DNA from: Lachnospiraceae bacterium
GTDB lineage: Bacteria; Bacillota; Clostridia; Lachnospirales; Lachnospiraceae
Reading direction: 5' to 3'
DNA length: 64,000 bases
Assembly (NCBI GenBank): GCA_910575775.1
Contig: CAJTEY010000017.1
Location: 1-64,000, forward strand
Position 1 is the stretch's first letter; every line of letters starts with the position of its first letter. The position numbers were made by a program, and so were the translations under genes. Positions 2,956 through 57,567 of the stretch are shown one piece after another. The notes under the pieces are model-generated. The model did no database searches. It was not told the origin of the DNA and saw nothing but the letters and a program-made list of their open reading frames with translations.

Positions 2956-3020
2956 TCATGCCTCAGTATAGCCTATCAGTAGATGCATCGGTATTTTTAT
3001 CCGATCTGCAATTTTCTTTG

Positions 3021-3054
3021 TCAATAATACGAACCAGCAGGCAAAAAAGTTTCA
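3021..3054 (-). promoter_or_regulatory. ECF (sigma-W-like) promoter element
   Basis: The minus strand reads TGAAAC, 17 bp, CGTATTATTGA. It matches the copies at 454-487 and 46414-46447 in length and in both core boxes. It lies directly upstream of the hypothetical-protein fragment that starts at 2955. Confidence 0.6.
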
Positions 3055-3101: not shown

Positions 3102-3938
3102 TCACACATTCCCCACATACACCTTTTCCAGATACTTCCCCGCTATCCCGGCAAGGCGGTACAACTGCTCCACGTCCGTAGCCTCCCTGTCCATCATGTG
3201 ATACCGCGGAAAAAAGCGGGTGATATGGAGAGGGATTGACGGACGCAGGTCAACAATCCATTCAGCCTGCGCTTCCATGTCCTCAGGAGAATCGTTTTCG
3301 TCCGGCACAATCAGCGTCGTCAGCTCCACATGACAGCTTTCCTGCGCCCTCGCGATAAAAGCCTTAACCGTCTCCAGATTCCCGCCAAGCTTTCGGTAGT
3401 AGTCCTCACGAAATCCCTTCAAATCAATGTTCATGGCATCTATCCATGGAAGCAGCTCCTCAAGCACTTCCTGCGAGGCAGTTCCGTTTGTCACGAGCAC
3501 ATTTACCATCCCGTATTCCCTCACCAGCCGCGCCGTTTCACGGACAAACTCCCAGCCTACCAGCGGTTCATTGTAAGTATATGCCACACCGATGTTCCCC
3601 GCCTCTTTCCGCTCCTTCCACATAAGCGCCAGATCCGCAAGCTGTTCGGGGGAGACATGCTCTGCGTTAAGGCTCCTGTTGTCAGCCATGGAAATCTCGT
3701 GATTCTGGCAGAAAGGGCAGCGAAGGTTGCACCCATAACTTCCCACGGACAAAACCATACATCCAGGATGGAAATCATACAGAGGCTTCTTTTCAATGGG
3801 ATCCAGAGCCATGGAAGTAATCCTGCCGTAATTTACACAGGCAATTTCCCCACCCTCATTTTTTCTCGCCCTGCACAGCCCCGTCTGTCCGGGTTCCAGC
3901 GCACAGTGGTGCATACACACCTGACAAATTGTTTTCAT
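3102..3938 (-). CDS. amrS: AmmeMemoRadiSam system radical SAM enzyme
   Basis: A 278-residue radical SAM protein of the PflA-like type. The iron-sulfur motif is GCNLRCPFCQNHE (CxxxCxxC), at about residues 70-77. An N-terminal CxxC-containing region (ICQVCMHHCAL, GLCRARKN) precedes it, as in the AmrS family. It is next to the Memo-AMMECR1 fusion gene, transcribed in the same direction about 90 bases upstream. This pairing defines the AmmeMemoRadiSam set. The substrate is unknown; a radical-based modification is inferred from the fold. One copy of the palindromic repeat family fills the gap between the two genes. Confidence 0.9.
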   Translation of the reverse strand: MKTICQVCMHHCALEPGQTGLCRARKNEGGEIACVNYGRITSMALDPIEKKPLYDFHPGCMVLSVGSYGCNLRCPFCQNHEISMADNRSLNAEHVSPEQLADLALMWKERKEAGNIGVAYTYNEPLVGWEFVRETARLVREYGMVNVLVTNGTASQEVLEELLPWIDAMNIDLKGFREDYYRKLGGNLETVKAFIARAQESCHVELTTLIVPDENDSPEDMEAQAEWIVDLRPSIPLHITRFFPRYHMMDREATDVEQLYRLAGIAGKYLEKVYVGNV

Positions 3939-3951
3939 ATCCCCACTCCTA

Positions 3952-4016
3952 TGCGAAATTTAGTACTTCTTGGCGTCTCGTCCTATGGTGAGACGTCTTT
4001 AGAAGTACTTTTCGCA
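3952..4016. repeat. Intergenic palindromic element, copy A
   Basis: A nested palindrome: TGCGAAA / TTCGCA outside, AGTACTTCT / AGAAGTACT in the middle, GTCTC / GAGAC inside. Its reverse complement is nearly identical in the core to copy E at 48210-48271, while the outer stem differs in a base-paired way (GCGAA/TTCGC here, GTGAGA/TCTCAC there). It lies between the Memo-AMMECR1 gene and the radical SAM gene. Conserved pairing with changed sequence points to a selected hairpin. Confidence 0.8.
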
Positions 4017-4028
4017 TTTTTCACTCTA

Positions 4029-5414
4029 TTAATAGTGCCGTATCACTTCAAACCGTTCCAGCTCCACACTCTCATGCTCTCTGATTCCCGCCTTCTGCTT
4101 CGCTATGGCGATCTGCTGCTCTACCGTGTCCACACCCTCCAGATTCGGCAGCAGCAGCCCACGCCTTCCGCCTTTTGTCACGATGACGCCGTACCGGGTC
4201 ACATCCAGCTCCTCCGGCGAGGAAATCTTCTCCGTCTCCCCCAGCACATCGACGCTGATCGTCAGACGATCCACCTCCCAGTCCTCCACAGGAGAGAATC
4301 TGGTATCCTCCGAACAGGCGCTGACAGCATTGTGCATGATCTCTTCCGCAAGCGTTCCTCTGACCGCCCGGATCGTTCCAATACATCCTCTGAGCCTTCC
4401 GTCCTCTTTCATGGACACAAACGCACCCGCCCTGCTTTTGTACAATTCCTCAGGCAGCCCCTCGGGCATCTCGGGCAAAGTCCCCGTCTTCACAAACTTC
4501 TCGACAGTGTACCTCGCCAGCCTGACGTAAGCGTCTTCCCGTTCCCGCCTCGCAAGACTCTCCTTCCGCTCCTTCTCCTCATACTGCTCCAGAAAATTCC
4601 GTGTATTGTCATCGCCGCAGGGTCGATAGGTACAGACGCCATACCCCACCCCGAAAGGTCCTTCATAGGAAAACTGCTCTGCCTCCACATCGGTCCGGTC
4701 AAATGCGCCCGCCATGATGGTAAAGGAACGATGTCCGCACTCTGCCGCCTTCTCGCAGAAATCTTCCGAAAACTGAAACAGCTTCCCAAAATCGCCCCTG
4801 CCCATCACATCCATAATACGCGCATCGTAAATCGGTCCCTCCTCCTGATAACCGTATGGTCCCTCCTCCTTTAACTTATGGGACAGATCGCCGCTGGCAA
4901 TCACCACCGTATTCCGCCCGAGCGTCTGTGACACCGTCTGGATGCACTGTCCCAGCCGGTAATGCGCCGCCAAAGGCAAGCCCGACAGACCGACTCTCAC
5001 CAGACGGTATCCCGTCCAGTATTGATTCACAAAATATAAGGGCACCATGGTGCCATGATCCAGTTTCTTCTCCCGTTCTCCCAACGTTCCCGCCTGTAAA
5101 TCCGAATCAATCGCAGCCTCACACAGCGCACGGACAAACTCCGTGTCATAGGATACTTCCATGGAAGCCTGTCCGGCGCGGAACTGCCCAAAGTCGCCCC
5201 TTGCGCCCTTCCCGGGCGAAATGTGGAAATAGTCCGCATACATGGTCTGGTGCGGGGAGAGGAGCACGATGGTCTCGGGCTGCAGACGACCGACCGCCTC
5301 CGCTGCCTTCTTGTACGCATCAATCGTCTTCTGAATTTTCTTTTCCTCACCTCTGCCCACATCAGGTATGATGAGCGGCGGGTGCGGCACCATAAATCCT
5401 GCTGAAATTCCCAT
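4029..5414 (-). CDS. Memo-like / AMMECR1 fusion protein (AmmeMemoRadiSam proteins B and A)
   Basis: 461 residues in two domains. Residues 1 to about 265 are a Memo / class III extradiol dioxygenase-like domain with the family's conserved histidines (PHPPLIIPDVG, LLSPHQTMY, LDHGTMVPLYF, ASGDLSHK). From about 285 to 461 it is an AMMECR1 domain (SRAGAFVSMKEDGRLRGCIG, with the LRGCIGT hallmark, then TRFSPV). The fusion of these two domains next to the radical SAM gene is known in Firmicutes. The biochemical role is not established; a metal-dependent redox or modification function is only inferred. ATG at 5414 follows an AGGAGG-like site. Confidence 0.88.
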   Translation of the reverse strand: MGISAGFMVPHPPLIIPDVGRGEEKKIQKTIDAYKKAAEAVGRLQPETIVLLSPHQTMYADYFHISPGKGARGDFGQFRAGQASMEVSYDTEFVRALCEAAIDSDLQAGTLGEREKKLDHGTMVPLYFVNQYWTGYRLVRVGLSGLPLAAHYRLGQCIQTVSQTLGRNTVVIASGDLSHKLKEEGPYGYQEEGPIYDARIMDVMGRGDFGKLFQFSEDFCEKAAECGHRSFTIMAGAFDRTDVEAEQFSYEGPFGVGYGVCTYRPCGDDNTRNFLEQYEEKERKESLARREREDAYVRLARYTVEKFVKTGTLPEMPEGLPEELYKSRAGAFVSMKEDGRLRGCIGTIRAVRGTLAEEIMHNAVSACSEDTRFSPVEDWEVDRLTISVDVLGETEKISSPEELDVTRYGVIVTKGGRRGLLLPNLEGVDTVEQQIAIAKQKAGIREHESVELERFEVIRHY

Positions 5415-17361: not shown

Positions 17362-17601
17362 GAAATTAAATAATGCTTGGCATTTTAATCGTCTTGTGCG
17401 GTGCTGCCGGTAGTGAGAGAACTATCAAGAGGGTTTGGGATATTTCCCAATTTGACTGGTTATTAAAATAGGAAACGAAAATCTATGATGGAGCCTGCGC
17501 TGGTCATTCGCGGGTATATATGGTAGCCATAACACCACTCTATATCTGCTAATACCCGCGCTTTAATTATATAACCAACCTATTACTACCACGATATGCA
17601 A
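17362..17601. other. Intergenic stretch with one long hairpin
   Basis: No gene seen. CGCGGGTAT (17509-17517) pairs with ATACCCGCG (17552-17560) around a 34-base loop; the loop is AT-rich and partly self-complementary. CTTTAATTAT follows on the plus strand. It could act as a weak terminator or mark the edge of the inserted resistance locus. Confidence 0.4.
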
Positions 17602-17895
17602 TTACTGTGGAGAGCACATGACCTTCTCCATCTCCATCCGCGCCCTGATCCCATCCTCCATTCCGAATCGATAAGCTACTGCGCCATATGCCGCACCACA
17701 TTCATTATATGCCGTAATGACACGGTCAACGGCTTTTTTCTGCTCAGACGTAAGGTTCAGGCTGTCCATAATGTCCGATGCCGACTGTTCTTCTGCCAAT
17801 GCCTCCTGATAAGATTTATCCCTTTTTAAGAGTTCGTCCAGATCTTTCACTGTCCTGTGTGCCGCTATGATCTCCAACAATCCATTTTTCCTCAT
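17602..17895 (-). CDS. Small hypothetical protein (DUF6809-like)
   Basis: 97 residues, all-helical in look, with no signal peptide. It contains SASDIMDSLNLTSEQKKAVD followed by AYNECGAAYGAVAYRFGMEDG. A shorter near-copy lies at 21449-21683, and a distant relative at 22946-23188 (FNQLDLTEKQRAV, CRDKQDFKYGTHAY). The family is common in Lachnospiraceae accessory regions; I recall it as DUF6809 but am not certain. The function is unknown. Confidence 0.55.
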   Translation of the reverse strand: MRKNGLLEIIAAHRTVKDLDELLKRDKSYQEALAEEQSASDIMDSLNLTSEQKKAVDRVITAYNECGAAYGAVAYRFGMEDGIRARMEMEKVMCSPQ

Positions 17896-21226: not shown

Positions 21227-21448
21227 CTACGGCATCCTCCTGCTTCTTTTCTTTCTTTTTACATTGTACTTTATTTCAGGTATTTATTCAATCACTCTTA
21301 TTTTTAACATGCATCAGCTTTTAATTTTAAACAATATATTTGCTGTGGTATCAGATGGTATAATGACATACATGCCACCCTTGCTATTGCTTATGTGTTA
21401 ATATCGAGTTCATAAGATAATGAAGGGAACAATAAGTCGCACAATATA

Positions 21449-21683
21449 TCAATACTTTAGGAAGCGCATAATCTCTTCCATCTCCATCCGCACCCTAATC
21501 CCATCCTCCATTCCGAATCGGTAAGCCACAGCGCCATATGCCGCGCCACACTCATTATATGCTGTAATAACACGGTCAACCGCTTTTTTCTGCTCAGACG
21601 TAAAATTCAGGCTGTCCATTATGTCTGATGCTGACCGTTCTTCTTCCAACGCATTCTGATAATATTTATCTCTTTTTACACCA
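21449..21683 (-). pseudogene. Truncated copy of the DUF6809-like gene
   Basis: The minus strand repeats most of the gene at 17602-17895: KRDKYYQNALEEERSASDIM is followed by a sequence nearly identical up to the C-terminus, which differs (EEIMRFLKY). The first 20 or so codons are missing beyond about 21683, where the hairpin array begins. The DNA identity to the other copy is high, so the duplication is recent. Confidence 0.7.
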
Positions 21684-22001: not shown

Positions 22002-22063
22002 AAAATCACCTTTCCATTATAATAGGGGTGTTCAGGCCACTATTATAATGGAAAGGTGATTTT
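22002..22063 (+). promoter_or_regulatory. Perfect 24-bp hairpin over the tnpA ribosome binding site
   Basis: 22002-22025 is the exact reverse complement of 22040-22063, with a 14-base loop. The 3' arm contains GAAAGGTGAT, the ribosome binding site, and ends directly at the tnpA ATG. IS200 elements are known to block both incoming transcription and translation of tnpA with such a stem. Here it would silence the transposase. Confidence 0.85.
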
Positions 22064-22498
22064 ATGGCAAAGCAAACAAATTCGCTCGCACATACGAAGT
22101 GGATGTGTAAATATCACATCATCTTCACCCCAAAGTATAGACGAAAAATTGTCTATAATCAATATAAAACAGATTTGCGTGATATTTTAAAGCAGTTGTG
22201 CAGTTACAAGGGAGTGGAGATCATAGAAGGGCATCTTATGCCTGGCCATGTGCATATGCTTGTAAGTATACCACCGAAGATAAGTGTTTCATCATTTATG
22301 GGATATCTGAAGGGAAAAAGCGCCCTGATGATGTTTGACAGGCATGCAAACCTGAAGTATTAGTTTGGAAACCGTCACTTTTGGTCAGAAGGGTATTATG
22401 TTAGTACCGTAGGATTGAATGAAGCTACGATAAAGAAGTATATTCAGGATCAGGAGAGAGCGGATATCATGCAGGATAAGCTCAGCGTGAAAGAATAG
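22064..22498 (+). pseudogene. tnpA: IS200-type transposase TnpA with an in-frame amber stop
   Basis: The frame codes for about 144 residues: MAKQTNSLAHTKWMCKYHII, HUH-type motif in MPGHVHMLVSIPP and, after a TAG at 22361-22363, FGNRHFWSEGYYVSTVGLNE and the region ATIKKYIQDQE holding the catalytic tyrosine. The TAG replaces a residue after HANLKY, in phase with the rest, so a single base change (for example from AAG) explains it. Without read-through the catalytic tyrosine is lost and the element cannot move by itself. Confidence 0.85.
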
Positions 22499-22715
22499 GA
22501 AGACCCTTTTAAGGGTCAGGGCTGAGTAGTACAAACGCCCCTTTAGGGGCAGCAACGAGTCAAAAGCAATGTGGCTTGAACGGAGCCGTGGGAAGACTGC
22601 AATGGGCAGGCTTCCCACGGTTTTAAAGAGAAAGCCAGCGTCTTGAGACGTAGCCAAGTAGGGCGGGCTTAGAGCCCGCGTCCCTAGCCACCCGTTTTAC
22701 GGGTGGGGGCGACTT

Positions 22716-30751: not shown

Positions 30752-30853
30752 TCCTTCACAAACTCTCCCGTTACAGTATGGTATTATTCATTTTTCCACT
30801 ATTTTCTATTATTATCTACACAATTATTTCATATCACAGCCCATAATCTCTAT

Positions 30854-30888
30854 GCGGAGAATGCCGTCCTTTTGCATTCTTCTCACGC
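30854..30888. repeat. Intergenic palindromic element, partial copy B
   Basis: GCGGAGAATGCCG and GCATTC and then CTTCTCACGC, a shortened copy of the module seen at 33519-33632. It lies between the stop of the second solute-binding gene and the MalF-like permease start, and the flanks after CTCACGCTGTTATTC match those at the end of the first solute-binding gene. So gene and repeat were probably duplicated together. Confidence 0.6.
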
Positions 30889-30890
30889 TG

Positions 30891-33479
30891 TTATTCGGAC
30901 ATATAAATCCCCAGTTTCTTCTGCACAGCCTCCACAGCCTCCTCCAGACTGCATTGCTCTTCCATGTAATACTTCCCGGCTTCCCGCACCGCATCTTCTA
31001 CAACCGCGTCATACAGATAGGGGGTGCGGACAGAGGAGAGCAGATCGAACAGTTCCTTCGTCTCCTGCTCCGTTGGCACATAGACGCTCATTTGAACCAC
31101 CAGACCATTCTCGTCCCCAAAGCCGTATCCGCTGAAAGGCTCTCCCGGCTTGCCCCATTCGGGGAGCTGACCGCCCAACGTCTCAAGATATGTCTCTAAA
31201 CCCGCCTCATTGACGGGAAAACCGACTGGATAAATCATACGCTGCATATCCTCGGAAAGCGCTTCCCGCAAAAGCCCGCCGGCAAGCTCCGTCCGGGCGG
31301 ATGCTGCGTTCATGCCCATCAGCGCATAAGGGCGGAAGGAATCCTTCGCGTTTCCCGGCGTCAGCGCCATCTGACAATTTGTGCCATTCTCCTCGTTGTC
31401 CGACCGCTTCACAGACTGTAAAAAGGCGTAATTGTATGCGTTTTTTAATTCTCCCAGAGCCACCTTCTCATTGCCGGCAACGATCTGCACGCCGCCGCCC
31501 TGCAGGTCATTGTAGGCGCTGAACTCATCGCTGCTGCCAACTGTGTTCTCGGCTCTCCCCTGATAGACTTGCAGCAGTTCCTCGGGCAGCCCCTCCATGC
31601 AGGCATCATAAATACGCTTCGTCTGCTCCAGATAGTCGGACAGCTCCGCCGCATCGAGCTGCCCCGCATCGGTAAACCAGAGCGGCGCGGACACCGGCAT
31701 CAGCGCGTTCAGTATCATGTCCTCGCTGTAAGTCTCCAGAATGCCCTCGCCCGGATGCTCACTTCTGAGTTTCTCTATCATATCCGCCAGAGCGGAAAGA
31801 TCCGACACTTCCGTCATATTTTCTTTGTCAGTCATATACATGGACACGGTCAGCGCCGCCGGAAGCATACAGATTTTTCCGTCCGCCGTAAAACTTTCCT
31901 TGATATTCGGAAGAATCTTTTCCTCCTTCTCCAGTTCTGCCAGATACGGCGTCAAGTCCGCCAGCACCCCTTTTTCCACATAGGAGTTTACGGGAAGCCC
32001 GTCCAGAATAAGAAAATCGGGACCCTTACCCGCCATGATTTCCGTGTTCAGCTTTTTCACCGCGTCTTCTCTGGTGACGCCGCCCTCCTCGTCCATGCCC
32101 ACCTTGTATTCCACATAGACGTCGGGATGCGCCCCCTGATAGCGGATGATCGCCTGTCTCAAAATATCGTTCTCTGTCAGACTGTACGCCGTGAGCGTCT
32201 GCGACGGCACGGTACTGATTTCGGGATCGTAGGCGAAGGATGACACCTTACCCTCGGAAAATGCCGCCATAAAGCTTTCCTCCTCCGTCCGTATCATCTT
32301 CACTACATGCTTCATGGGGTCGCTCAGACTGCACAGACCACCGTTGATCACCTGCTCCATGACCGTGCCGCCGATCACATGACGGTACACGCCCTTGCTG
32401 CAGACCAGATAAACGCCCTCTTCCTCCGCCGGAAAAATACTGTAGGTGGATTCTGCGACATGCTTGTTGATCACACAGTTTTTATTCACAAAATCCGTGA
32501 TCACATCATCCTCGATCTGCTCCGCCGTGTCAAGTGCGTACAGGACAACGCCGCCACTCTCGCTCTTGACCGCCATATAGTTGTCCCAGACACAGAACAT
32601 GTCTGGTATAATATCCACCGCCAGAAACAGCTTTGCCGTCCCCGTTTCCTGATCGATCTCATAAATGTTCGGCTCCATCGACGCCACAAAAAGCCTGCTG
32701 CCATCCTCCGAAAAACCGAGACTTGCGGCAATATCAAACTCATCTGCGGGCACATCAAACCACTTCGTCTCGCCCTGCGCGGAAATCAGACAAATCTTAT
32801 TTCTGCTTCCCTCATCCGTTTCCTCTTCTTCGTCTGTTTCGGCTTCCTTTTCATCTGTCGCCCCTTCGCTGTCCCCGGATTCCTCGCCGTCCGCCGCTTC
32901 GCCGTCCCCAGATTCCTTGCCGTCTACCGTTTCTTCTCCGTTCCCGGATTCTTCAGCGTCCTCTTCCGCTCCTTCTCCGTCCCTGGATTCCCCGACGTCC
33001 TCTTCCGCCCCTTCTCCGTCCCCGGATTCCCCGGCATCCTCTTCCGCCGCCCCGGTCAACCCGCGAAAGCTCCTGCAGAGCATAGCCACGCTTCCGTCGG
33101 GAGCCGCCTTCATGTCATATATATAATAATTCATCGCCAGATCATTCCAACCCGGCAGGGCATCCGGCTTCCACGTCACACCTTTGTCATCGGAGACCCA
33201 TCGCCCCTCCGCGCCGTTTTCCAGAAGGACGAGCTTCCCGTCGGAAAGCTCTTTCAGATCCATAAGTTCCCCGGTATCCACATCCAGCATGGTCTCCACA
33301 TACCGTCCCATCGCCACAGTGTCGCCGGACAGTTCACCCGTCTTTGTCTCTGTGCTGTCTGTCCCTCCGTCCCCGCCTTTGCCGCCGCACCCTGCAAGGG
33401 ACAAAGCCATCACCCCCGCCAGCCACAAAGCCGCCGCCCGTCTCCTGCCATTTTGCTGTCTCATCCCGTTCACCTGCAT
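30891..33479 (-). CDS. Lipoprotein: propeller-like domain fused to an ABC solute-binding domain (copy 2)
   Basis: 862 residues. Twin-basic start, helix and lipobox (VMALSLAGCGG, Cys near 31). The N-terminal half has repeated beta-sheet motifs of propeller type (SDDKGVTWKPDALPGW, MAAAPDGSVAMLC-like, LFVASMEPNIYEID), interrupted by a Glu/Gly/Asp-rich tandem repeat (about 145-230). From about 425 it is an extracellular solute-binding domain (ENDILRQAIIRYQGAHPDV, LNTEIMAGKGPDFLI). It is a paralogue of the upstream gene and probably feeds the two sugar permeases downstream. The start at 33479 has GGAGG 9 bases upstream; ATG at 33464 is also possible. Confidence 0.75.
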   Translation of the reverse strand: MQVNGMRQQNGRRRAAALWLAGVMALSLAGCGGKGGDGGTDSTETKTGELSGDTVAMGRYVETMLDVDTGELMDLKELSDGKLVLLENGAEGRWVSDDKGVTWKPDALPGWNDLAMNYYIYDMKAAPDGSVAMLCRSFRGLTGAAEEDAGESGDGEGAEEDVGESRDGEGAEEDAEESGNGEETVDGKESGDGEAADGEESGDSEGATDEKEAETDEEEETDEGSRNKICLISAQGETKWFDVPADEFDIAASLGFSEDGSRLFVASMEPNIYEIDQETGTAKLFLAVDIIPDMFCVWDNYMAVKSESGGVVLYALDTAEQIEDDVITDFVNKNCVINKHVAESTYSIFPAEEEGVYLVCSKGVYRHVIGGTVMEQVINGGLCSLSDPMKHVVKMIRTEEESFMAAFSEGKVSSFAYDPEISTVPSQTLTAYSLTENDILRQAIIRYQGAHPDVYVEYKVGMDEEGGVTREDAVKKLNTEIMAGKGPDFLILDGLPVNSYVEKGVLADLTPYLAELEKEEKILPNIKESFTADGKICMLPAALTVSMYMTDKENMTEVSDLSALADMIEKLRSEHPGEGILETYSEDMILNALMPVSAPLWFTDAGQLDAAELSDYLEQTKRIYDACMEGLPEELLQVYQGRAENTVGSSDEFSAYNDLQGGGVQIVAGNEKVALGELKNAYNYAFLQSVKRSDNEENGTNCQMALTPGNAKDSFRPYALMGMNAASARTELAGGLLREALSEDMQRMIYPVGFPVNEAGLETYLETLGGQLPEWGKPGEPFSGYGFGDENGLVVQMSVYVPTEQETKELFDLLSSVRTPYLYDAVVEDAVREAGKYYMEEQCSLEEAVEAVQKKLGIYMSE

Positions 33480-33518
33480 CTGAATTGCCCTCCATACTCT
33501 CTAAAATCATACCTACAC

Positions 33519-33632
33519 GGAGAATGCCCGCACTTCGGGCATTCTCCCGCGTGAGAAGGAGTTGCACCGCAACTCTTAGAACTTCTTCGCGAAACAGCCT
33601 TTGCTGTGAGCGATTAGAAGTTCTTCTCACGC
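33519..33632. repeat. Intergenic palindromic element, copy C (two modules)
   Basis: Module 1: GGAGAATGCCCG / GGGCATTCTCC at 33519-33547. Module 2: GCGTGAGAAG (33549) with CTTCTCACGC (33623-33632) as outer stem; inside are GTTGC/GCAAC, AGAACTTCT/AGAAGTTCT and ACAGC/GCTGT stems. It lies between the two solute-binding genes. Module 2 shares its inner parts with copies G and H. Confidence 0.8.
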
Positions 33633-33634
33633 TG

Positions 33635-43339: not shown

Positions 43340-44017
43340 ATGCGTATACTGCTTGCAGAAGATGATGAAAAACTGAATGAGACACTTGTTTATGGCCTGA
43401 CACAGGCCGGCTTTATCGTTGACGCCTGTTTTGACGGGGAGGATGCGCTCTTCTACGGAGAACAAAATATTTACGACGTCATTCTTTTAGACCGCATGCT
43501 GCCCTGTATGGAAGGCACGGATGTGCTTGCCTCCCTGCGCAAAAAGGGCATCTCCACGCCTGTGATCCTGATTACCGCTCTGGGAACGCTTTCCGACAAG
43601 GTGGAAGGACTGGATCTTGGCGCGGACGATTATCTGGTCAAGCCATTTGCCATAGAGGAGCTTTTAGCCAGAATCCGCTGTGTGGCCAGAAGACCGCACC
43701 GCATCGTGGCCGAGGAGACGCTCACCCTTTCAGACATCTCCTGGCTGCCCGCAGAAAACCGACTCGACGGTCCTTCCGGGCACTGTACACTATCAAAGCG
43801 GGAGGCCTCGCTTCTGGAAGCTTTTCTGAAAAGCGGCGGTGCCACCCTGTCCAGAAACCATCTGCTGCTAAAGGTCTGGGGACCAGACAGCGATGTGGAG
43901 GAAGGCAATCTGGACAACTATATCCATTTTCTGCGCAGACGTCTGAAAGCGGTTGGCAGCCGCCTGTGCCTGAAAACCGTCCGCGGCGTGGGCTACGCCA
44001 TAGCGGAATCACAGTAA
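43340..44017 (+). CDS. OmpR-family response regulator
   Basis: 225 residues from MRILLAEDDEKLNE; GGTGG lies just before this ATG, and a GTG 12 bases upstream is less likely. The receiver has phospho-acceptor Asp 51 in VILLDRMLPCMEG, ITALG and DYLVKPFAIEE; the winged helix follows (SKREASLLEAFLKSGG, VRGVGYAI at the end). It is divergent from the hybrid kinases and 25 bases upstream of its partner kinase. A -10-like TAGAAT lies near 43311. Confidence 0.9.
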   Translation: MRILLAEDDEKLNETLVYGLTQAGFIVDACFDGEDALFYGEQNIYDVILLDRMLPCMEGTDVLASLRKKGISTPVILITALGTLSDKVEGLDLGADDYLVKPFAIEELLARIRCVARRPHRIVAEETLTLSDISWLPAENRLDGPSGHCTLSKREASLLEAFLKSGGATLSRNHLLLKVWGPDSDVEEGNLDNYIHFLRRRLKAVGSRLCLKTVRGVGYAIAESQ

Positions 44018-44042
44018 AGTAACGTAGAAATGGGGACCAGAC

Positions 44043-45365
44043 ATGTTTCGAAAAGTACACCTGTATCTCACGGCGCTCTGCGCCGGCATTACCGCCTCCA
44101 TCCTGATCGTGATGTCCCTGCTCTATCTGTACCTCTCTGAAAAAGAACTGTACGAAAACCAGTTCCGCTCTTTCCAAAGCGATATCATTACCATTTCCAC
44201 CAGCTTAGAGCAGCAATCCGTGATCTCTATGGAATGGCTTTCCAAGATGGAAACCCGGGGCGGCTACACTTTTTATGCCCTGGACAACGGCATCCCCTTT
44301 CTCTACAACAGGCTCACCAGTTTTTCCGAATCCTCCGAAATCCGCAGTCTCCTCGATGCCTGCCTGGAATACTATGAGTCCCACTATGAAACCGGCTCTT
44401 TGGAGGAAGGCGGCGACATTCCTTACAATACCTGTCTGCATGTGGAATTTTCTTTCCACCCTGCCGGAACAGCGCAGGAATTTTATATCAGCGTCATTGA
44501 ACTGACGCGGGGCACGTCCTCCCTGCAGCTTCTGGTGCTCTTCCCTCTGGATTTTCTCCGGGAACAGATCACCAGACAGAGAGTGCGCTTCTTTCTGATT
44601 GATATCGCCGCCATCTTACTCTTATCCCTTTTTTCCTTTTTCTTTACCGGGAAACTGCTTCATCCTGTGATTGAAAGCCGCAGGAAGCAGACGGAATTTG
44701 TGGCTGCCGCCTCCCACGAGCTGCGCACCCCCCTTGCCGTAATTCTCTCTGCCGCTGAATGCTGCCGAGACGCAGATGCGGAAAAACAGTCACGCTTTCT
44801 CGACACCATCAAGCAGGAAGGTGATATCTTGACTTCTTTAGTCAATGATATGCTCACTTTGAGCGCCTCCGACTCCCAGCGCTTCTCTTTCCGCCCGGCT
44901 CCCGTGGAGCTGGACACACTGGTTATCAACACTTACGAAGCCTTTGAGCCGTTAGCCGCCGAAAAAAAGCTGTCCCTCACCGTTACCCTGCCGGAAGAAT
45001 CCCTGCCCCTTTGTACGGCGGACGCGGAACGTATCATACAGCTTCTCTCCATCCTGCTTCACAACGCAGTCAGCTACACCCCGGAGGGCGGACGCATTGA
45101 CCTGTCCCTCCTCCGCAAAAAGAACCGCTTTTATCTGACCGTCTCCGATACCGGCATCGGGATTCCTCCCGAGGACAGGAAAAAGATTTTCGACCGCTTT
45201 TACCGGGCAGAAAAATCCCGAAGCGCCAAAGGGCACTTCGGGCTTGGTCTCTCCATCGCCTCCGAAATTGTAAAGCTCCACCACGGTACGCTGAGTGTCA
45301 CCGGCCGCCCCGGCGGCGGAAGCGCATTCACGGTCATGCTGCCATCGTGTGAGAAGTACTTCTAA
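44043..45365 (+). CDS. Sensor histidine kinase, partner of the upstream regulator
   Basis: 440 residues. Helix 1 (ITASILIVMSLLYLYL), an extracellular domain (about 35-175), helix 2 (IDIAAILLLSLFSFFF), HisKA with FVAAASHELRTPLAVILSAAE (His about 225) and HATPase (LSILLHNAVSYTPEGG, DTGIGIPPEDRKKIFDRFYR, GLGLSIASEIVKLH). No HAMP domain is obvious. The last codons and stop (CEKYF, TAA) come from palindromic element copy D, so the C-terminus is not native to the family. Confidence 0.9.
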   Translation: MFRKVHLYLTALCAGITASILIVMSLLYLYLSEKELYENQFRSFQSDIITISTSLEQQSVISMEWLSKMETRGGYTFYALDNGIPFLYNRLTSFSESSEIRSLLDACLEYYESHYETGSLEEGGDIPYNTCLHVEFSFHPAGTAQEFYISVIELTRGTSSLQLLVLFPLDFLREQITRQRVRFFLIDIAAILLLSLFSFFFTGKLLHPVIESRRKQTEFVAAASHELRTPLAVILSAAECCRDADAEKQSRFLDTIKQEGDILTSLVNDMLTLSASDSQRFSFRPAPVELDTLVINTYEAFEPLAAEKKLSLTVTLPEESLPLCTADAERIIQLLSILLHNAVSYTPEGGRIDLSLLRKKNRFYLTVSDTGIGIPPEDRKKIFDRFYRAEKSRSAKGHFGLGLSIASEIVKLHHGTLSVTGRPGGGSAFTVMLPSCEKYF

Positions 45366-45474
45366 TCACTCGCAGCAAAGGCTGCATCGCAAAGTCAGCA
45401 AAGATGACTTGGAAGTACTAAGTCTGTTTTTCTGACTTTTCTCACACAGGAGGCCCAAAATACGGGCATTCTCC
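45347..45474. repeat. Intergenic palindromic element, copy D
   Basis: Outer stem GTGTGAGAA (45347) with CTCACAC (45441-45447). Inside are AGTACTT/AAGTACT, GCAGC/GCTGC and AAGTCA/TGACTT stems, then a GCCC/GGGC stem at 45453-45470. It lies between convergent genes and covers the end of the kinase gene, giving it its stop codon. Confidence 0.75.
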
Positions 45475-45487
45475 ACACCTACGCGTA

Positions 45488-46366: not shown

Positions 46367-46413
46367 AGAATCCGCTCCTCCCCATCATGCTGTTTGTTAC
46401 CGTTTCTTCTATA

Positions 46414-46447
46414 TTAATAATACGAATCAGTGTAGTGAAAAGTTTCA
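46414..46447 (-). promoter_or_regulatory. ECF (sigma-W-like) promoter element
   Basis: On the minus strand TGAAAC, 17 bp, CGTATTATTAA, about 50 bases upstream of the 46366 start codon. It is the same 34-bp layout as at 454-487 and 3021-3054. It suggests control of the downstream hypothetical by an ECF sigma factor, which is not encoded in this window. Confidence 0.65.
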
Positions 46448-46492
46448 AAAAACCTGACGAATGGATAAAATGCGCGTATTCCCCGATTTTCA

Positions 46493-46520
46493 TTGCAAAA
46501 ACCTGCTCTTTGTGTATAAT
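46493..46520 (+). promoter_or_regulatory. Sigma-A promoter of the ABC-F gene
   Basis: TTGCAA (46493-46498), 16 bp, TATAAT (46515-46520), about 48 bases upstream of the ABC-F start. It lies back to back with the ECF-type promoter of the divergent gene. Confidence 0.75.
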
Positions 46521-46567
46521 GATATGAGTAACCGAAACAAGTAAAATAAGAAAAATGAGGATTCCAC

Positions 46568-48208
46568 ATGATACAGGCAAACAACGTAACCTTACGCGTA
46601 GGAAAAAAGGCCCTCTTTGAGGACGTTAATATCAAATTCACCGAAGGCAACTGCTACGGACTGATCGGCGCAAATGGCGCTGGCAAGTCCACCTTTTTAA
46701 AAATTCTCTCAGGTGTACTGGAAACCACCAGCGGCGATGTTTCCATCACGCCCGGCCAGCGTCTCTCCGTTCTGGAGCAGGATCACTTTAAATACGACGC
46801 CTACTCCGCTATGGATACGGTCATCATGGGCAACGAGCGTCTCTATCAGATCATGAAGGAGAAGGACGCCATCTACGCCAAAGAGGATTTCTCCGATGAG
46901 GACGGCATCCGTGCAAGCGAACTGGAAGCAGAATTTGCAGAGATGGACGGCTGGGACGCAGAGTCCAATGCCGCTATGCTTCTGAACGGTCTTGGTGTCG
47001 GAACGGAGCTGCACTACAGCCAGATGGCAAATTTAAACGGTAACGAAAAAGTCAAAGTGCTTCTGGCGAAGGCGCTTTTTGGCAACCCGGATATCCTTCT
47101 TCTGGACGAGCCTACCAACCATCTGGATTTGGACGCCATCGCATGGCTGGAAGAATTTCTGATCAACTTTGAAAACACAGTGATCGTGGTTTCCCACGAC
47201 CGTTACTTCCTCAATAAAGTCTGCACGCACACGGCTGATATCGACTATGGAAAAATCCAGCTCTATGCGGGCAACTACGATTTCTGGTACGAGTCCAGCC
47301 AGTTAATCGTCAAACAGCGCAAGGAAGCCAACAAAAAGAAAGAGGAACAGATCAAGGAGCTGCAGGAATTTATCTCCCGGTTCTCCGCCAACGCAAGTAA
47401 ATCCAAGCAGGCGACATCCAGAAAGCGCGCCCTTGAAAAGATTGAGCTGGACGACATCCGTCCTTCCAGCCGTAAATATCCTTACATTGATTTCCGGCCC
47501 GAGCGTGAGATCGGCAATGAAGTACTCACCGTAGAGGGCTTAAGCAAAACCATAAACGGCGAAAAGGTACTGGACAATCTCTCCTTCATCGTGGGTCATG
47601 ACGACAAAATCGCCCTTGTGGGCGGCAACGAGCTGGCCAAGACCACCCTGCTTCAGATTCTGACCGGGGAGATGGAGCCGGACGAAGGCACTTACAAATG
47701 GGGTGTCACCACCTCTCAGGCCTATTTCCCGAAGGATAACACGGCAGAATTCGACAACGATTACACCATCACCGACTGGCTCATGGGCTACTCTTCCGTG
47801 AAGGACGTGACGTATGTGCGCGGCTTCCTTGGACGTATGCTCTTTGCGGGCGAGGACGGCGTGAAGAAGGTAAAGGTGCTCTCCGGCGGAGAAAAGGTGC
47901 GGTGTCTCCTCTCCAAAATGATGATCAGCGGTGCCAACTGTCTGCTCTTCGACGAGCCGACGAACCACCTTGATATGGAAGCGATCACTGCGCTGAACGA
48001 GGGGATGAAGAAATTTAAGGGTGTGGAAATTTTCTCCTGCCACGACCATCAGGTGGTACAGACCACAGCCAACCGCATCATGGAAATCCTGCCGGACGGC
48101 ACTCTGATCGACAAGATCACCACCTACGACGAGTATCTGGAAAGCGATGAGATGGCGAGAAAACGTACCGTCTACACAAGCACCGCCAGTCAGGAAGAGG
48201 ACGACTAA
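46568..48208 (+). CDS. ABC-F family ATPase (YbiT-like)
   Basis: 546 residues, two ABC domains and no membrane part. Domain 1: Walker A GLIGANGAGKSTFLKIL, signature MANLNGNEKVKVLLAK, Walker B LLLDEPTNHLDLDAI. Charged linker at about 250-300. Domain 2: Walker A ALVGGNELAKTTLLQIL, which lacks the glycine of GxGK and reads LAKTT, signature VLSGGEKVRCLL, Walker B LLFDEPTNHLDMEAI. The changed second P-loop is, as far as I recall, usual in this clostridial subgroup. It acts on ribosomes; whether for translation or antibiotic protection cannot be decided. Confidence 0.87.
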   Translation: MIQANNVTLRVGKKALFEDVNIKFTEGNCYGLIGANGAGKSTFLKILSGVLETTSGDVSITPGQRLSVLEQDHFKYDAYSAMDTVIMGNERLYQIMKEKDAIYAKEDFSDEDGIRASELEAEFAEMDGWDAESNAAMLLNGLGVGTELHYSQMANLNGNEKVKVLLAKALFGNPDILLLDEPTNHLDLDAIAWLEEFLINFENTVIVVSHDRYFLNKVCTHTADIDYGKIQLYAGNYDFWYESSQLIVKQRKEANKKKEEQIKELQEFISRFSANASKSKQATSRKRALEKIELDDIRPSSRKYPYIDFRPEREIGNEVLTVEGLSKTINGEKVLDNLSFIVGHDDKIALVGGNELAKTTLLQILTGEMEPDEGTYKWGVTTSQAYFPKDNTAEFDNDYTITDWLMGYSSVKDVTYVRGFLGRMLFAGEDGVKKVKVLSGGEKVRCLLSKMMISGANCLLFDEPTNHLDMEAITALNEGMKKFKGVEIFSCHDHQVVQTTANRIMEILPDGTLIDKITTYDEYLESDEMARKRTVYTSTASQEEDD

Positions 48209-48209
48209 A

Positions 48210-48303
48210 GTGAGAAGTACTTCTAAAGACGTCCCGCCATTGGACGAGACGCCAAGAAGTACTAAATCTCACTTAGGAGAATGCCTAAGATACGGCATTC
48301 TCC
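48210..48303. repeat. Intergenic palindromic element, copy E
   Basis: Module 1 (48210-48271): GTGAGA / TCTCAC outer stem, AGTACTTCT / AGAAGTACT middle stem, core almost identical to the reverse complement of copy A. Module 2 (48276-48303): GGAGAATGCC / GGCATTCTCC with a short loop. It begins two bases after the ABC-F stop and fills the gap to the PHP gene. Confidence 0.8.
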
Positions 48304-48330
48304 GCACGAATATATAGATAATAGAGGAAA

Positions 48331-49191
48331 ATGATGAAAGCTATCGACCTGCACACCCACACCTGCAAATCTGATGGCAGCTACACGCCTACGGAACTGG
48401 TGGACTATGCCATAGAGAAAAATCTGGCCGCAGTGGCTATCACAGATCATGACAGCATAGAGGGTCTGGATGAGGCGCTGGCCCATGCTTCTGATCTGAA
48501 AAAGCGTGGTCTTCCTTCCGTGGAAGTAGTGCCGGGAATTGAGTTTTCCACAAAATACCAGAAACAGGACGTGCACATTGTAGGGCTTTATATCTCCTAT
48601 GGGGAAGAAGCCTTCCAGGATGCGCTTTGCGGTTTCGTGGACTCCCGCATCAGCCGCAATATGAAAATGTGTGAAAATCTGCAGGGTGCAGGCATCGATA
48701 TCACCTATAATAAGCTGCTTCACATGTATCCCGAAGCGGTCATCACCAGAGCGCATTACGCATCCTACCTGCTCGCACACGGATATGTGAAAAGCCGGCA
48801 GGACGCGTTCGCCAGATACCTTGGCGATCACACGAAATACTTTGTGCCCAGGGAAAAGGTAACACCCTCCCAGGCAGTGGAACTGATCATAAAGGCGGGC
48901 GGCATTCCCATTCTGGCACACCCGCCCCTTTATCATATGGGAAACAGCAGACTGGAGTCCCTGGTTTCCTCTCTGAAAGAGGACGGCCTTATGGGCATCG
49001 AAGTCTTCTACAGCACCTACACCAATCAGGATGTGCGGGATATGCGCAGACTGGCGGATAAGTACGATCTTCTCATAAGCGGCGGCTCCGATTTCCACGG
49101 TGCGAACAAACCCGGCCTGGATCTCGGCTGCGGCTACGGAAAATTATATGTTCCTGAAGAAGCGCTCTTCAAAATCAAGGAGGCACTATGA
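48331..49191 (+). CDS. PHP-domain phosphoesterase
   Basis: 286 residues of the RNase AM / 3',5'-nucleoside bisphosphate phosphatase type. The metal-binding set is DLHTHTCKSDGSYTP (residues 6-20), ITDHDSIEG, PGIEFSTKY, HPPLYH and GGSDFHGANK. It probably hydrolyses phosphate esters of nucleotides. It overlaps the HAD gene by 4 bases (ATGA), so the two are translationally coupled. A second ATG one codon downstream is equally possible. Confidence 0.87.
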   Translation: MMKAIDLHTHTCKSDGSYTPTELVDYAIEKNLAAVAITDHDSIEGLDEALAHASDLKKRGLPSVEVVPGIEFSTKYQKQDVHIVGLYISYGEEAFQDALCGFVDSRISRNMKMCENLQGAGIDITYNKLLHMYPEAVITRAHYASYLLAHGYVKSRQDAFARYLGDHTKYFVPREKVTPSQAVELIIKAGGIPILAHPPLYHMGNSRLESLVSSLKEDGLMGIEVFYSTYTNQDVRDMRRLADKYDLLISGGSDFHGANKPGLDLGCGYGKLYVPEEALFKIKEAL

Positions 49192-50009: not shown

Positions 50010-50012
50010 TCT

Positions 50013-50044
50013 GCGGAGAATGCCTGTTTTTAGGCAACTCCGTC
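50013..50044. repeat. Intergenic palindromic element, short copy F
   Basis: GCGGAGAATGCCT, a T-rich loop and AGGCAACTCCG: only module 2 of the family. It lies between the convergent HAD gene and the small hypothetical, so it can terminate both. Confidence 0.65.
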
Positions 50045-50049
50045 TCACA

Positions 50050-50304
50050 CTATTCTATGATCAGGTACCTTCCGTCACCGATTTCAAACACTTCATCGGC
50101 TTCCAGGATCTCCTCTTCGCCGGCTCCTTCCATGTCCACGCCTTCCTCCTCGAAGAACTCCCACACTTCCCTGACGGAATCCACCACAACCGCCATACAC
50201 TCCTCCAGGAAGTTTTCTGCCTCCTCGTATGTTTCAGCTACTTTCTCTGGATAAAGCTGTAGCTGATTCTCCAAAAAACACCGTACTGTTTTCTCGTCAA
50301 ACAC
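50050..50304 (-). CDS. Small acidic hypothetical protein
   Basis: 84 residues, very acidic (EEEGVDMEGAGEEEILEADE), and helical in the first half (EEAENFLEECMAVVVDSVRE). It ends FEIGDGRYLIIE. No signal peptide, no known motif. It stands downstream of maf in the same direction, with about 70 bases between. I do not recognise the family. Confidence 0.55.
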   Translation of the reverse strand: MFDEKTVRCFLENQLQLYPEKVAETYEEAENFLEECMAVVVDSVREVWEFFEEEGVDMEGAGEEEILEADEVFEIGDGRYLIIE

Positions 50305-50371
50305 AGACCATTCCTCCCTACATCTTATTGTTTACATCATATAATCATTCACACCTTGAGGGACAAAGTCT

Positions 50372-50959: not shown

Positions 50960-50995
50960 ATTTGTTCATTCCTTTCAAACACCTGGCTTTCTCAC

Positions 50996-51079
50996 AAGTG
51001 AGGCGGAGTTGCCCTGCAACTCCTGAAATTTCTTAGCGGGACTGCCTCTGCTGCCGAGCTTTAGAAGTTCTTCTCACTT
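50996..51079. repeat. Intergenic palindromic element, copy G
   Basis: Outer stem AAGTGAG (50996-51002) with CTCACTT (51073-51079); inner perfect stem GGAGTTGC/GCAACTCC (51005-51023); the AAATTTCTTAGC and GCTTTAGAAGTTC arms resemble module 2 of copies C and H. It overlaps the end of the polyphosphate kinase gene and supplies its stop codon. Confidence 0.75.
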
Positions 51080-53205
51080 TGGTCATGGTGCATTTTCGGG
51101 ATAAAGACCCGCTTATGCACTGTCCCCGCCTTCTCCTTCGCGGCCGCCTTGGCTGACTGGCAGAACGCAAGCTGGGCGTTGTACACTTCCTTCCCGCGCT
51201 TATCCACCTTCACATAACTTCCGTCAGACTGCAGAACCGAAGCCTTCACCGTATCCTTGAGCTGGCAGTCCAGAATGGTATGCAGCTTCTCCTGCAGGGC
51301 AGGCTTTTCAATGGGGAATAGGATTTCCACCCTGCGCTCCAGGTTTCTCGGCATCCAGTCAGCGCTGGCACAGTAGTATTCCGGCTTGCCGTCATTTTCA
51401 AAATAAAAGATCCGGGCATGCTCCAGAAAATTTCCGACGATGGAGCGGACCGTTATGTTTTCGCTGACACCCTCGATGCCCACACGCAGACAGCAGATGC
51501 CCCGTATAATCAGATCAATCTTTACCCCCGCCGTACTGGCATCGTAAATCGCATCAATCACATCCTTATCACAGAGGGCGTTCATTTTTGCAATAATTCT
51601 GGCCGGTCTTCCCGACTCTGCATGGGATTTCTCCCTGGCAATCAGATGAATAAACCGGTCTTTCAGCCAATGCGGCGCCAGGGACAGCCTGTTCCAGCTT
51701 CTCGGCTCCGAATAGCCCGAAAGCATGTTAAACACTGCCGTGGCATCCTCCCCGATCATCTCCGAGCAGGTAAAATACCCGATATCCGTGTACAGCTTCG
51801 CCGTGGAGTCATTATAATTGCCTGTTCCCAGATGGACATACCGTCGGATACCATTCTCCTCTTTTCTGACAACAAGTGTTATTTTACTGTGGGTTTTAAG
51901 TCCTACCAGGCCGTAAATCACATGACAGCCCGCTTTCTCCAGCTTTTTCGCCCAGACGATATTGTTTTCCTCGTCAAATCTGGCTTTCAGCTCCACAAGC
52001 ACGGAAACCTGTTTCCCGTTTTCCGCCGCCTGCTCCAGGGCCGCAATGATGGGCGAATTGCCGCTTACCCGATAAAGGGTCTGCTTGATGGCCAGCACCT
52101 CCGGATCCCTGGCCGCCTGTCTGATAAACCGTACCACCGGCTCGAAGCTCTGGTACGGATGATGCATCAGGATATCCCCCTCCCGGATCTTCTCAAACAC
52201 ATCCGCGTCCTCCGGCAGCTCCGGCACAACCTGGGGCGGCAGATAACTGTGCTCCTTCAGATGGTCAAAACCTTCCACACCGTAGAGTTTCATCAGAAAA
52301 GTCAGATCCAGCGGTCCGCCGATGGCATAGATATCCTCCTTCGGAATTGCCAGTTCCTCCCGGATCAGTCTGAGGAGGCGGCTGTCAATGCCCTCCTCCA
52401 CCTCCAGACGGATCACCTGTCCCCACTGTCTCTTTTTGAGCTGCTTCTCGATCTCCTGCAGGAGATCCTCCGCCTCCTCCTCCTCAATCGTCAGATCCGC
52501 ATTCCGCATGATGCGGAAAGGATAGGTGCAGACAATATCATAGTTCAAAAACAGCTTGTGTATGTTGCGCTCGATCACTTCTTCCAGAAGGATCAGCTTC
52601 CGGCCCTCCTCCGAAGGAATTTCCACCAGACGGGAAAGGACGCTTGGCACCTGCACCGTGGCAAACTCCAGCTCCCCGTCTCCGTTTTTCTTCGTCATCA
52701 GAGCCCCCAGATTTAAGGACTTATTGCGGATCAGCGGAAACGGGCGGGAAGAATCCACCGCCATCGGGGTGAGCACCGGGTAGACATTATCCGTAAAATA
52801 GCTGTCCACATAGGCCGCCTCCCCCTTCGTCAGATCCTCATGATGGGTAATGATGCGGAGTCCGTTCGCCGAAAGCTGCGGCAGGAGGGATCGGTTGTAC
52901 GTGTTGTACTGCTGGTTCACAAGCTGATGGGTTTTCTCATTTACCCGCACAAGCTGTTCCGTCGCCGTCATTCCTGCAATATCCCGCTTCTTATAACCCG
53001 CGTTCACCATATCCTTGAGGGACGCCACACGCACCATGAAAAACTCGTCCAGATTCGATGCGGTGATGCTCAAAAATTTCAGCCGCTCAAACAGCGGCAG
53101 CTGCTTATCCCTCGCCTCCGCCAGCACCCTCTCATTGAAAAGAAGCCAGCTCAGCTCCCTGTTCGTGTAGTAAGATTCATCTGCAAAAAATTTCCCTTGC
53201 GCCAT
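51061..53205 (-). CDS. ppk1: Polyphosphate kinase 1
   Basis: 714 residues from MAQGKFFADESYYTNRELSW; GGAGG lies 8 bases before this ATG, while the ATG two codons upstream is too close. It makes polyphosphate from ATP. Domains: N (FNERVLAEARDKQLP), H, C1 with KTHSKITLVVRK and VHLGTGNYN (catalytic histidine region), and C2 with ADWMPRNLERRVEI. The last codons (SEKNF, TAA) belong to palindromic element G, so the native C-terminus has been replaced or extended. It is 30 bases downstream of the Ppx gene and probably in one operon with it. Confidence 0.95.
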   Translation of the reverse strand: MAQGKFFADESYYTNRELSWLLFNERVLAEARDKQLPLFERLKFLSITASNLDEFFMVRVASLKDMVNAGYKKRDIAGMTATEQLVRVNEKTHQLVNQQYNTYNRSLLPQLSANGLRIITHHEDLTKGEAAYVDSYFTDNVYPVLTPMAVDSSRPFPLIRNKSLNLGALMTKKNGDGELEFATVQVPSVLSRLVEIPSEEGRKLILLEEVIERNIHKLFLNYDIVCTYPFRIMRNADLTIEEEEAEDLLQEIEKQLKKRQWGQVIRLEVEEGIDSRLLRLIREELAIPKEDIYAIGGPLDLTFLMKLYGVEGFDHLKEHSYLPPQVVPELPEDADVFEKIREGDILMHHPYQSFEPVVRFIRQAARDPEVLAIKQTLYRVSGNSPIIAALEQAAENGKQVSVLVELKARFDEENNIVWAKKLEKAGCHVIYGLVGLKTHSKITLVVRKEENGIRRYVHLGTGNYNDSTAKLYTDIGYFTCSEMIGEDATAVFNMLSGYSEPRSWNRLSLAPHWLKDRFIHLIAREKSHAESGRPARIIAKMNALCDKDVIDAIYDASTAGVKIDLIIRGICCLRVGIEGVSENITVRSIVGNFLEHARIFYFENDGKPEYYCASADWMPRNLERRVEILFPIEKPALQEKLHTILDCQLKDTVKASVLQSDGSYVKVDKRGKEVYNAQLAFCQSAKAAAKEKAGTVHKRVFIPKMHHDQSEKNF

Positions 53206-53235
53206 ATCCATGGCCTCCTTCTTCTTTTCACTCTA

Positions 53236-54762: not shown

Positions 54763-54794
54763 TCTTCCCCCGCAACTCCTTTTTCCTGCATTTC

Positions 54795-56102: not shown

Positions 56103-56129
56103 CCTCTTCTATCCTCCGCCAGTCTTTTC

Positions 56130-56223
56130 AGAGAATACCGCATTTCAGGCATTCTCTGGTGCGAAACATAGAAGTTCTTTGCGAAGCAGCCTTTGCTGCG
56201 AGCATTAGAACTTCTTTTCGCAC
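56130..56223. repeat. Intergenic palindromic element, copy H
   Basis: Module 2 type at 56130-56157 (AGAGAAT / ATTCTCT) and module 1 type at 56159-56223: outer stem GTGCGAAA with TTTTCGCAC, AGAAGTTCT / AGAACTTCT, GCAGC / GCTGC. It lies between pheA and the DUF815 gene. The order of modules is the same as in copy C. Confidence 0.8.
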
Positions 56224-56233
56224 GTTTCACGCT

Positions 56234-57361: not shown

Positions 57362-57567
57362 TTTCCCTGTCCTTTCAATCATCTCGTTCAGCCCGCGCCA
57401 TTCGCAAAATCGCGCCTTTGGCGCTCTCCGCTGCTTCGCGGCTATTTTTGCTCATAAGAAGGCGCTCCCTCAGAACTGTATCCATCTGTCAAATTCGTGC
57501 AAGCACAATTTGCCCGACGGATGCAGCTCTGGCTGAACTGATAAGTAAAGTTTACCGCAATTTGTTC

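Follow-up and report, generated by a model that had tools for sequence, protein, structure and literature searches.

Two palindromes on a Lachnospiraceae contig, copies A and E (Table 1), raise the question of what kind of element keeps a hairpin while its sequence changes. A sequence-only reading of the window, as we call the whole 64,000-nt stretch that was analyzed, had placed the copies 44 kb apart in opposite orientation, had described the differences between their outer arms as compensating, and had taken them for a selected RNA or DNA structure rather than a chance repeat. A repeat search of the window bears out the arrangement, returning an inverted pair (3946-4018 and 48207-48279) of 73 nt and 88% complementarity with 44,188 nt between its arms. 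Three pairs of the outer stem differ between A and E, and all three are compensated as claimed (T-A/A-T, C-G/T-A, and A-T/G-C). Chance can be set aside as well: blastn with copy A finds 35 places in the 4.88-Mb genome (176 contigs) at E ≤ 1, copy A included, and a covariance model built from 19 copies (R1) finds 97 at E < 0.01, or 93 under stricter filters. Copies A and E are therefore shown to be members of an interspersed family that reaches about 100 copies per genome. Later counts refer to 98 copies, namely the 97 R1 matches and the copy at window 45346-45477, which scores E = 7.12 with R1 and 8.6e-06 with a second model, R2.

The family is widespread in its genus, with 1 to 93 matches in each of 21 among 25 same-genus genomes, and none of 16 genomes from other families matches. 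Sequence-diverged matches occur in other genera of the same family, in 17 of 297 genomes at E ≤ 1e-4 with model R2, a figure that is a floor because only 13 candidates per genome were scored; it supersedes an earlier R1 search of 200 family genomes, which found matches in 6 of 198 from other genera. One exact degenerate pattern recovered 32 stretches in named genomes, whose hosts are Lachnospiraceae MAGs (some titled "uncultured bacterium"), one Clostridium sp. MAG, and isolate 1xD42-87.

When oriented like its upstream gene, the element consists of a foot, an 8-bp outer stem, a 9-bp second stem (AGTACTTCT/AGAAGTACT) whose 3′ side bulges by 3 nt (AAG or a variant), an apex hairpin, usually a second hairpin, and a spacer. 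The second hairpin, GGAGAATGCC...GGCATTCTCC in copy E, lies beyond what the sequence-only reading described; it is absent from A and present in 85 of 98 copies. Hairpin 2 is unlike hairpin 1, and the order of the two is fixed. The foot sits on a stop codon or supplies one (T+AA/AG, GTGA, or CTTCTAA). Apices are of type I in 33 copies, type II in 49, type III in 3, and other or none in 13, and side hairpins of four kinds occur (GTCAGC, 15 copies; GAGTTGC, 16; GTCTGC, 7; GATTTGC, 5); these module counts are loose, coming from fuzzy patterns with one to three mismatches allowed. By eye, the side hairpins occupy the bulge positions of simple copies. All four combinations of outer pairs 5 and 8 are present (44, 18, 18, and 12 copies), and the two pairs have thus changed or recombined independently; linkage between outer stem and apex type is weak (p 0.03), and two other tests of module assortment gave p 0.25 and 0.17. 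A few copies stand in tandem, such as C16:71835 and 71897.

Several further details of the copies were seen. In L092, L107, and L125, several copies of the window's own genome carry a GATTTGAGTCACAGCGAAGCTGTGACATGGCGGTTAG-like stretch past hairpin 2 that forms a third hairpin, after which some show the apparent foot of another element, and GATTTG or GATTTA lies within 14 nt after hairpin 2 in 15 of 72 copies. In folds inspected by eye, two sense-strand mismatches of apex type I read as G-U on the antisense strand, and the antisense strand of apex type II shows a GA/GA internal loop; such features are a possible hint at a recognized strand.

The window holds four more copies, besides remnants, on both strands, each following the direction of its gene (Table 1). 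The histidine kinase gene (44043-45365) and the polyphosphate kinase gene (51061-53211) end inside the copies at 45346 and 50981, both at CTTCTAA, and the TAA of the gene upstream of copy E, which we read as ABC-F type, is completed by the first two bases of copy E. Older elements appear to have left traces. The stretch TAGAGTGAAA before copy A can be read as an older element's foot, and at the same site in relatives G050 and G055 the sequence TAGAGTGAAAAG begins a complete element, with a similar one in G003; AGCGTGAAA before the copy at 56127 likewise looks like an older foot. Three other kinds of repeat were also noted in the window: another small interspersed repeat, 36 nt long (452-487, 3019-3054, and 46412-46447, the latter two 83% and 75% identical to the first), four 47-nt units at 32854-33047 inside ORF 30891-33479 (66-81% identity to a reference; spacings of 69, 39, and 39 nt), and a 239-nt direct repeat (17590-17828 and 21440-21678; 85% identical, 3,850 nt apart).

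Table 1. Copies of the element, their remnants, and neighboring genes in the window
Feature	Position	Strand	Remarks
Copy A	3950..4018	-	Hairpin 1: outer stem ATGCGAAA/TTTCGCAT, second stem AGTACTTCT/AGAAGTACT, apex type I; without second hairpin
TAGAGTGAAA	4019..4028	-	Between TAA of LigB/AMMECR1 gene and copy A
Gene upstream of copy A	4029..5414	-	LigB and AMMECR1 domains; TAA at 4029-4031
Gene downstream of copy A	3102..3938	-	Radical SAM
Copy E	48207..48306	+	Complete element: hairpin 1 and hairpin 2
Gene upstream of copy E	46568..48208	+	Two ABC ATPase domains
Gene downstream of copy E	48331..49191	+	PHP domain
Further copy	33516..33633	-	Extra GAGTTGC..GCAACTC hairpin at 3′ bulge; starts 1 nt after stop of 33635-36094
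Further copy	45346..45477	+	Two extra hairpins (GTCAGC and GTCTG modules)
Further copy	50981..51080	-	Hairpin 2 absent; weak match to model (E 0.011)
Further copy	56127..56224	-	Preceded by AGCGTGAAA after TAA of prephenate dehydratase gene
Remnant	30853..30890	-	Foot AGCGTGAGAAG fused to hairpin 2, without hairpin 1; directly after stop of 30891-33479; model match E 0.23
Footprint TAGAGTGAAAAGAAG	53221..53235	-	Directly after TAG of 53236-54762; absent from three relatives compared
Remnant TAGTGTGAGACGGAGTTGCC...GGCATTCTCCGCA	50012..50052	-	Relative G055 has complete element at same site

The position of the elements on stop codons is likewise new relative to the sequence-only reading. A same-strand ORF ends at the 5′ foot of 82 of 98 copies under a rule that requires an ORF of 70 codons or more and a stop ending no further than 14 nt ahead of the foot or 40 nt past it, and 16 copies do not dock. 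As controls, the far end read on the antisense strand gave 24/98, including 19 copies that dock in sense too, and shifted positions gave 190/1,960 (9.7%). The distance from stop to foot peaks at +1 (24 copies), −2 (20), −7 (15), and −20 (7), with 66 of the 98 at exactly these values; the last three peaks are sharp because the element itself supplies the stop codon wholly or partly, an explanation that does not extend to the +1 peak. By a crude codon-model gene caller, the nearest gene lies on the same strand upstream of 91 copies and downstream of 86. Docking recurs in other genera, at 17 of 21 uncut loci against 4 of 21 for the antisense strand; five of the 26 loci are cut by contig ends, which misplaces their positions, and with them the count is 19/26. 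Most elements lie at the 3′ ends of genes, for the most part at tight junctions of co-directional genes, and with few exceptions they point the same way as the gene upstream.

A covariance-model search of related genomes for compensatory pairs, the check that the sequence-only reading had proposed, found covariation far above that of shuffled alignments. In an alignment of 19 copies (A1), 95.4% of cells are paired and 18 of 37 pairs have changed on both sides, values reached by 0 of 500 shuffles; the covariation score is 0.284 against 0.126, and four measures in all stand at 0/500, the number of further pair types being unexceptional (91/500). The 99 distinct matches of alignment A2 gave 93.0% paired cells, 35/37 pairs changed on both sides, and a score of 0.306 against 0.118, with 0/500 on all five measures, and the 28 matches from other genera (A3; two of them overlap on opposite strands of L307) gave 94.0%, 35/37, and 0.522 against 0.166, again with 0/500 throughout. 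Sliding the partners by one to three columns lowers the paired cells to 33-52%. These figures lean toward structure in alignments A2 to A4, which were fitted to the model, and the cells are not independent because the copies are related.

Such a pattern invites the account of a selected cis-acting RNA, with intercistronic or 3′-end mRNA hairpins kept by selection on the sense transcript, and the sense orientation, the docking on stop codons, and the strength of the covariation within and across genera all agree with it, as do folding z-scores against shuffles of −7.2 for copy A and −9.7 for copy E including hairpin 2. On the antisense strand, however, copy E reaches a z-score of −9.6 and the better folding energy (−57.7 vs. 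−47.2 kcal/mol), the element is absent from many orthologous junctions (see below), and Rfam 15 has no match in the window at gathering score, with only weak matches to copy E at E ≤ 5. The kinds of base pair divide by stem. Among 4,679 cells of the main stems (outer, second, and hairpin 2 in A2, A3, and A4), 4,458 are Watson-Crick, 81 G-U, 74 A-C, and 66 other. G-U is commoner than A-C in the second stem (32 vs. 11) and in the apex (60 vs. 26), as RNA selection would have it, but is not favored in the outer stem (19 vs. 16) and falls below A-C in hairpin 2 (30 vs. 47). Single pairs account for part of these cells in A2: one pair contributes 11 of the G-U cells in the second stem, and one contributes 16 of the A-C cells in hairpin 2. 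The apex is badly aligned, with 172 other cells because unlike apex types share one alignment. No consistent preference for sense RNA is seen in the pairing, although such a preference is hinted at in the second stem and apex; the balance differs from stem to stem, so that the sum hides differences and RNA selection may still act on part of hairpin 1. What stands of the claim of a selected RNA or DNA structure is that the hairpin is kept while its sequence changes, genome-wide and across genera; with G-U and A-C about equally rare in sum (81 vs. 74) and unequal by stem, selection on one RNA strand is not established, and we regard the cis-acting RNA account as unlikely.

The exchange of bases at individual pairs can be read in another way. 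Outer pairs 5-180 and 8-177, each covered by more than 90 copies, occur in two Watson-Crick states (62/32 and 58/36), T-A/C-G at the one and G-C/A-T at the other, with no G-U or A-C between them. Copying of DNA from arm to arm, or copying of whole elements, would equally give Watson-Crick switches without intermediates, and PMC8794818 describes template switching as making compensatory changes in a single step. We infer that the hairpins are kept up at the level of DNA.

Orthologous junctions show what becomes of the element over time. The classes that follow are our reading of the junction sequences, and G000 denotes the genome of the window. At the ABC-F|PHP junction, the site of copy E, we compared the 30 best loci of 72 matching genomes among 77: three are full (G000, G055, and G275), one is half-deleted (G003), one retains a 9-nt foot as a footprint (G050), two are doubtful (G022 and G075), and 23 lack the element. 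Compact junctions, with the stop and the PHP start about 2 nt apart, typically GAC-GAC-TGA-GC-ATG, make up 16 of these 23; in G000, 122 nt separate the two codons, with GAGGAAA ahead of the start. The 30 loci of the PDT|DUF815 junction divide into two full (G000 and G075), five clear remnants (G050, G074, G282, G286, and G015), four doubtful (G274, G281, G006, and G051), and 19 without the element. Site A could be read at 20 junctions of 29 match rows, the other rows not reaching the gene end; hairpin 1 is present in five (G000, G050, G003, G055, and G058), a remnant in G002, three are doubtful (G049, G022, and G061), and 11 have none. In G000 the foot TAGAGTGAAA is followed at this site by an element unlike those of G050, G003, and G055. 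At the polyphosphate kinase gene, the C terminus, as we read the residues, is HHDE* in G003 and lies inside the element in G000. Presence, absence, partial deletion, and replacement are thus all seen at orthologous junctions. The sequence-only reading had set its structure against a mobile element that could be matched in full; a dispersed element that comes and goes moves some way toward the latter, although no matching known mobile element was found. To call the element mobile is to rely on a comparison of species, the closest relatives having 81-91% DNA identity and the others less, and mobility is accordingly put forward as probable.

The same junctions bear on a second alternative, that of an old, fixed punctuation of gene junctions, homogenized among copies by gene conversion and eroded by deletion, without transposition. 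Site C (window 45346) fits it, in that all four species compared carry an element there, with three different module sets, and so do the nearly identical site A elements of G050, G003, and G055. The 16 compact ABC-F|PHP loci without an element, and the site A element of G058 where G052 has a compact junction, tell against it, and we give it a low probability.

A family driven by a RAYT transposase, as in classical REP/BIME repeats, is very improbable. Its high copy number, palindromes, mosaic composition, and position downstream of genes are what such a family would show, and as a high-copy short palindrome found mostly at gene ends (97 matches, E < 0.01) the element has one of the traits that define REP/BIME repeats. 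However, the RAYT-REP foot tag is mostly absent (GT(A/G)G in 6/98 copies and a CGTC-like tag in 2/98), the element measures about 70 + 30 nt against the 20-40 bp of REPs (PMC3733652), and no RAYT gene was found, either in the window's own genome or in the 7 of 12 genus members without a Y1 transposase match, which include G002 (34 element matches), G016 (33), and G006 (22); some of the assemblies are 80-83% complete. The Y1 hits in the own genome are two long ones and a fragment, and we read the two long hits as IS200-like. By anatomy the element is a REP-like variant; of the marks that define RAYT-associated REPs, the tag is mostly absent and the RAYT gene was not found. Separately, window 22002-22500 is IS200-like by our reading, with a hairpin at 22002-22063 and a Y1 transposase frame interrupted by one internal TAG, and an open copy of that frame lies at G000:C17:85413-85769.

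A family of intrinsic terminators can nearly be dismissed: the hairpins do stand at gene ends and TTTT follows the GTCTGC side hairpins in some copies, but by eye no T run comes directly after hairpin 2, a terminator scan of 44000-57500, which holds four elements, placed one terminator-like site inside an element (the 45346 copy), and a same-strand ORF of at least 80 codons starts within 150 nt downstream of 88 of 98 copies, a count taken without a control.

We therefore somewhat favor the reading that A and E belong to a palindromic repeat of Lachnospiraceae, interspersed and built of modules, whose gain and loss take place in DNA and whose sites are the 3′ ends of genes; it would be copied at the DNA level and would act in mRNA as a hairpin. 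Against mobility stand the lack of any transposase found, in searches for Y1 transposases and integron integrases, and of any target-site duplication found: the bases at the two ends of 72 usable copies (51 in the table) show no association (Fisher p 0.55), and a possible TAG repeat surrounds the G058 element at site A. The near-perfect hairpins would arise if elements were copied whole and their arms corrected against each other, by template switching or in a folded single-strand intermediate. Within an operon, the element would be transcribed together with its genes, and, given the geometry of the ABC-F|PHP junction, a hairpin directly behind the stop would uncouple the cistrons. By analogy with E. 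coli REPs lying 15 nt or less from a stop codon, it may also stall terminating ribosomes. REPs protect upstream mRNA from 3′ decay, and the hairpin may do the same here.

The DNA-copying model leaves the fixed orientation to genes unexplained. A more specific and speculative picture, which we hold to be improbable as it stands, has a folded single-strand hairpin recognized by its shape, as attC sites are, and inserted at translation stops in one orientation, bringing its own stops and a spacer; the element would then be portable punctuation that separates coupled cistrons, and its covariation would come from the copying of DNA arms and not from RNA selection.

On the favored reading of a repeat copied as DNA, a large bacterial genus harbors an element that rewrites its gene junctions, turning a 2-nt junction into a 120-nt hairpin spacer, and an effect of the element on translation or on the lifetime of mRNA, if there is one, would change how much dozens of gene pairs produce, all at once. 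Covariation of this strength is commonly accepted as proving a selected RNA; here wobble intermediates are few, and DNA copying may account for much of it. About a hundred paralogues in one genome make the choice between template switching and selection directly testable.

Several known systems resemble the element in part. Integron attC sites stand behind stop codons in fixed orientation, keep their structure while their sequence varies, and have bulged bases on one strand. All of these traits are shared by the Lachnospiraceae element, but no integron integrase scored above the TIGR02249 cut-off in any of 10 genomes, the weaker hits being general tyrosine recombinases by our reading, and the host genes compared stand in conserved order, not as cassettes. 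ERIC, BOX, bcr1, and Correia/NEMIS are intergenic MITE-like repeats of about 100 nt, BOX being modular. With these families, and with RU, described as an intergenic repeat of the same kind (PMC2759123), the element was compared by description, not by sequence, and it differs in that no target duplication was found. The palindromic candidate structured RNAs of the human microbiome, found by covariation, are also about 100 nt long (e.g., HMP2_1032, 106 bp; PMC8040213); the comparison covers two palindromic examples of that paper, for which the taxa named are Bacteroidetes. Among the literature matches listed, which lie outside subscription journals and the tables of PMC8040213, there is no Lachnospiraceae or Clostridiales repeat of this kind, and we do not claim that the element is unpublished.

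A further likeness is to the GTAG- and CGTC-tagged REP/BIME repeats, described as abundant, short, mosaic palindromes that lie predominantly past the ends of coding regions, whether the genes on either side are unidirectional or convergent, and are plausibly transcribed (PMC2817692, PMC3733652). REPs in that position are considered plausible RNA elements, and the CGTC REPs, like the Lachnospiraceae element, have no known transposase (PMC3733652, in whose text neither Firmicutes nor Clostridi occurs). The element departs from REP/BIME repeats in its mostly absent tags, its length of about 100 nt, its two unlike hairpins, its exchangeable side hairpins, its nearly fixed orientation to the upstream gene, and the placement of its foot on stop codons. 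E. coli REPs that lie no more than 15 nt from a stop codon, which share with it a hairpin directly behind the stop, are reported, from earlier work, to stall ribosomes and lower translation (PMC12306157); there they make up about 11% (446/4,072) of REPs, whereas here, by a different rule, 82 of 98 copies dock.
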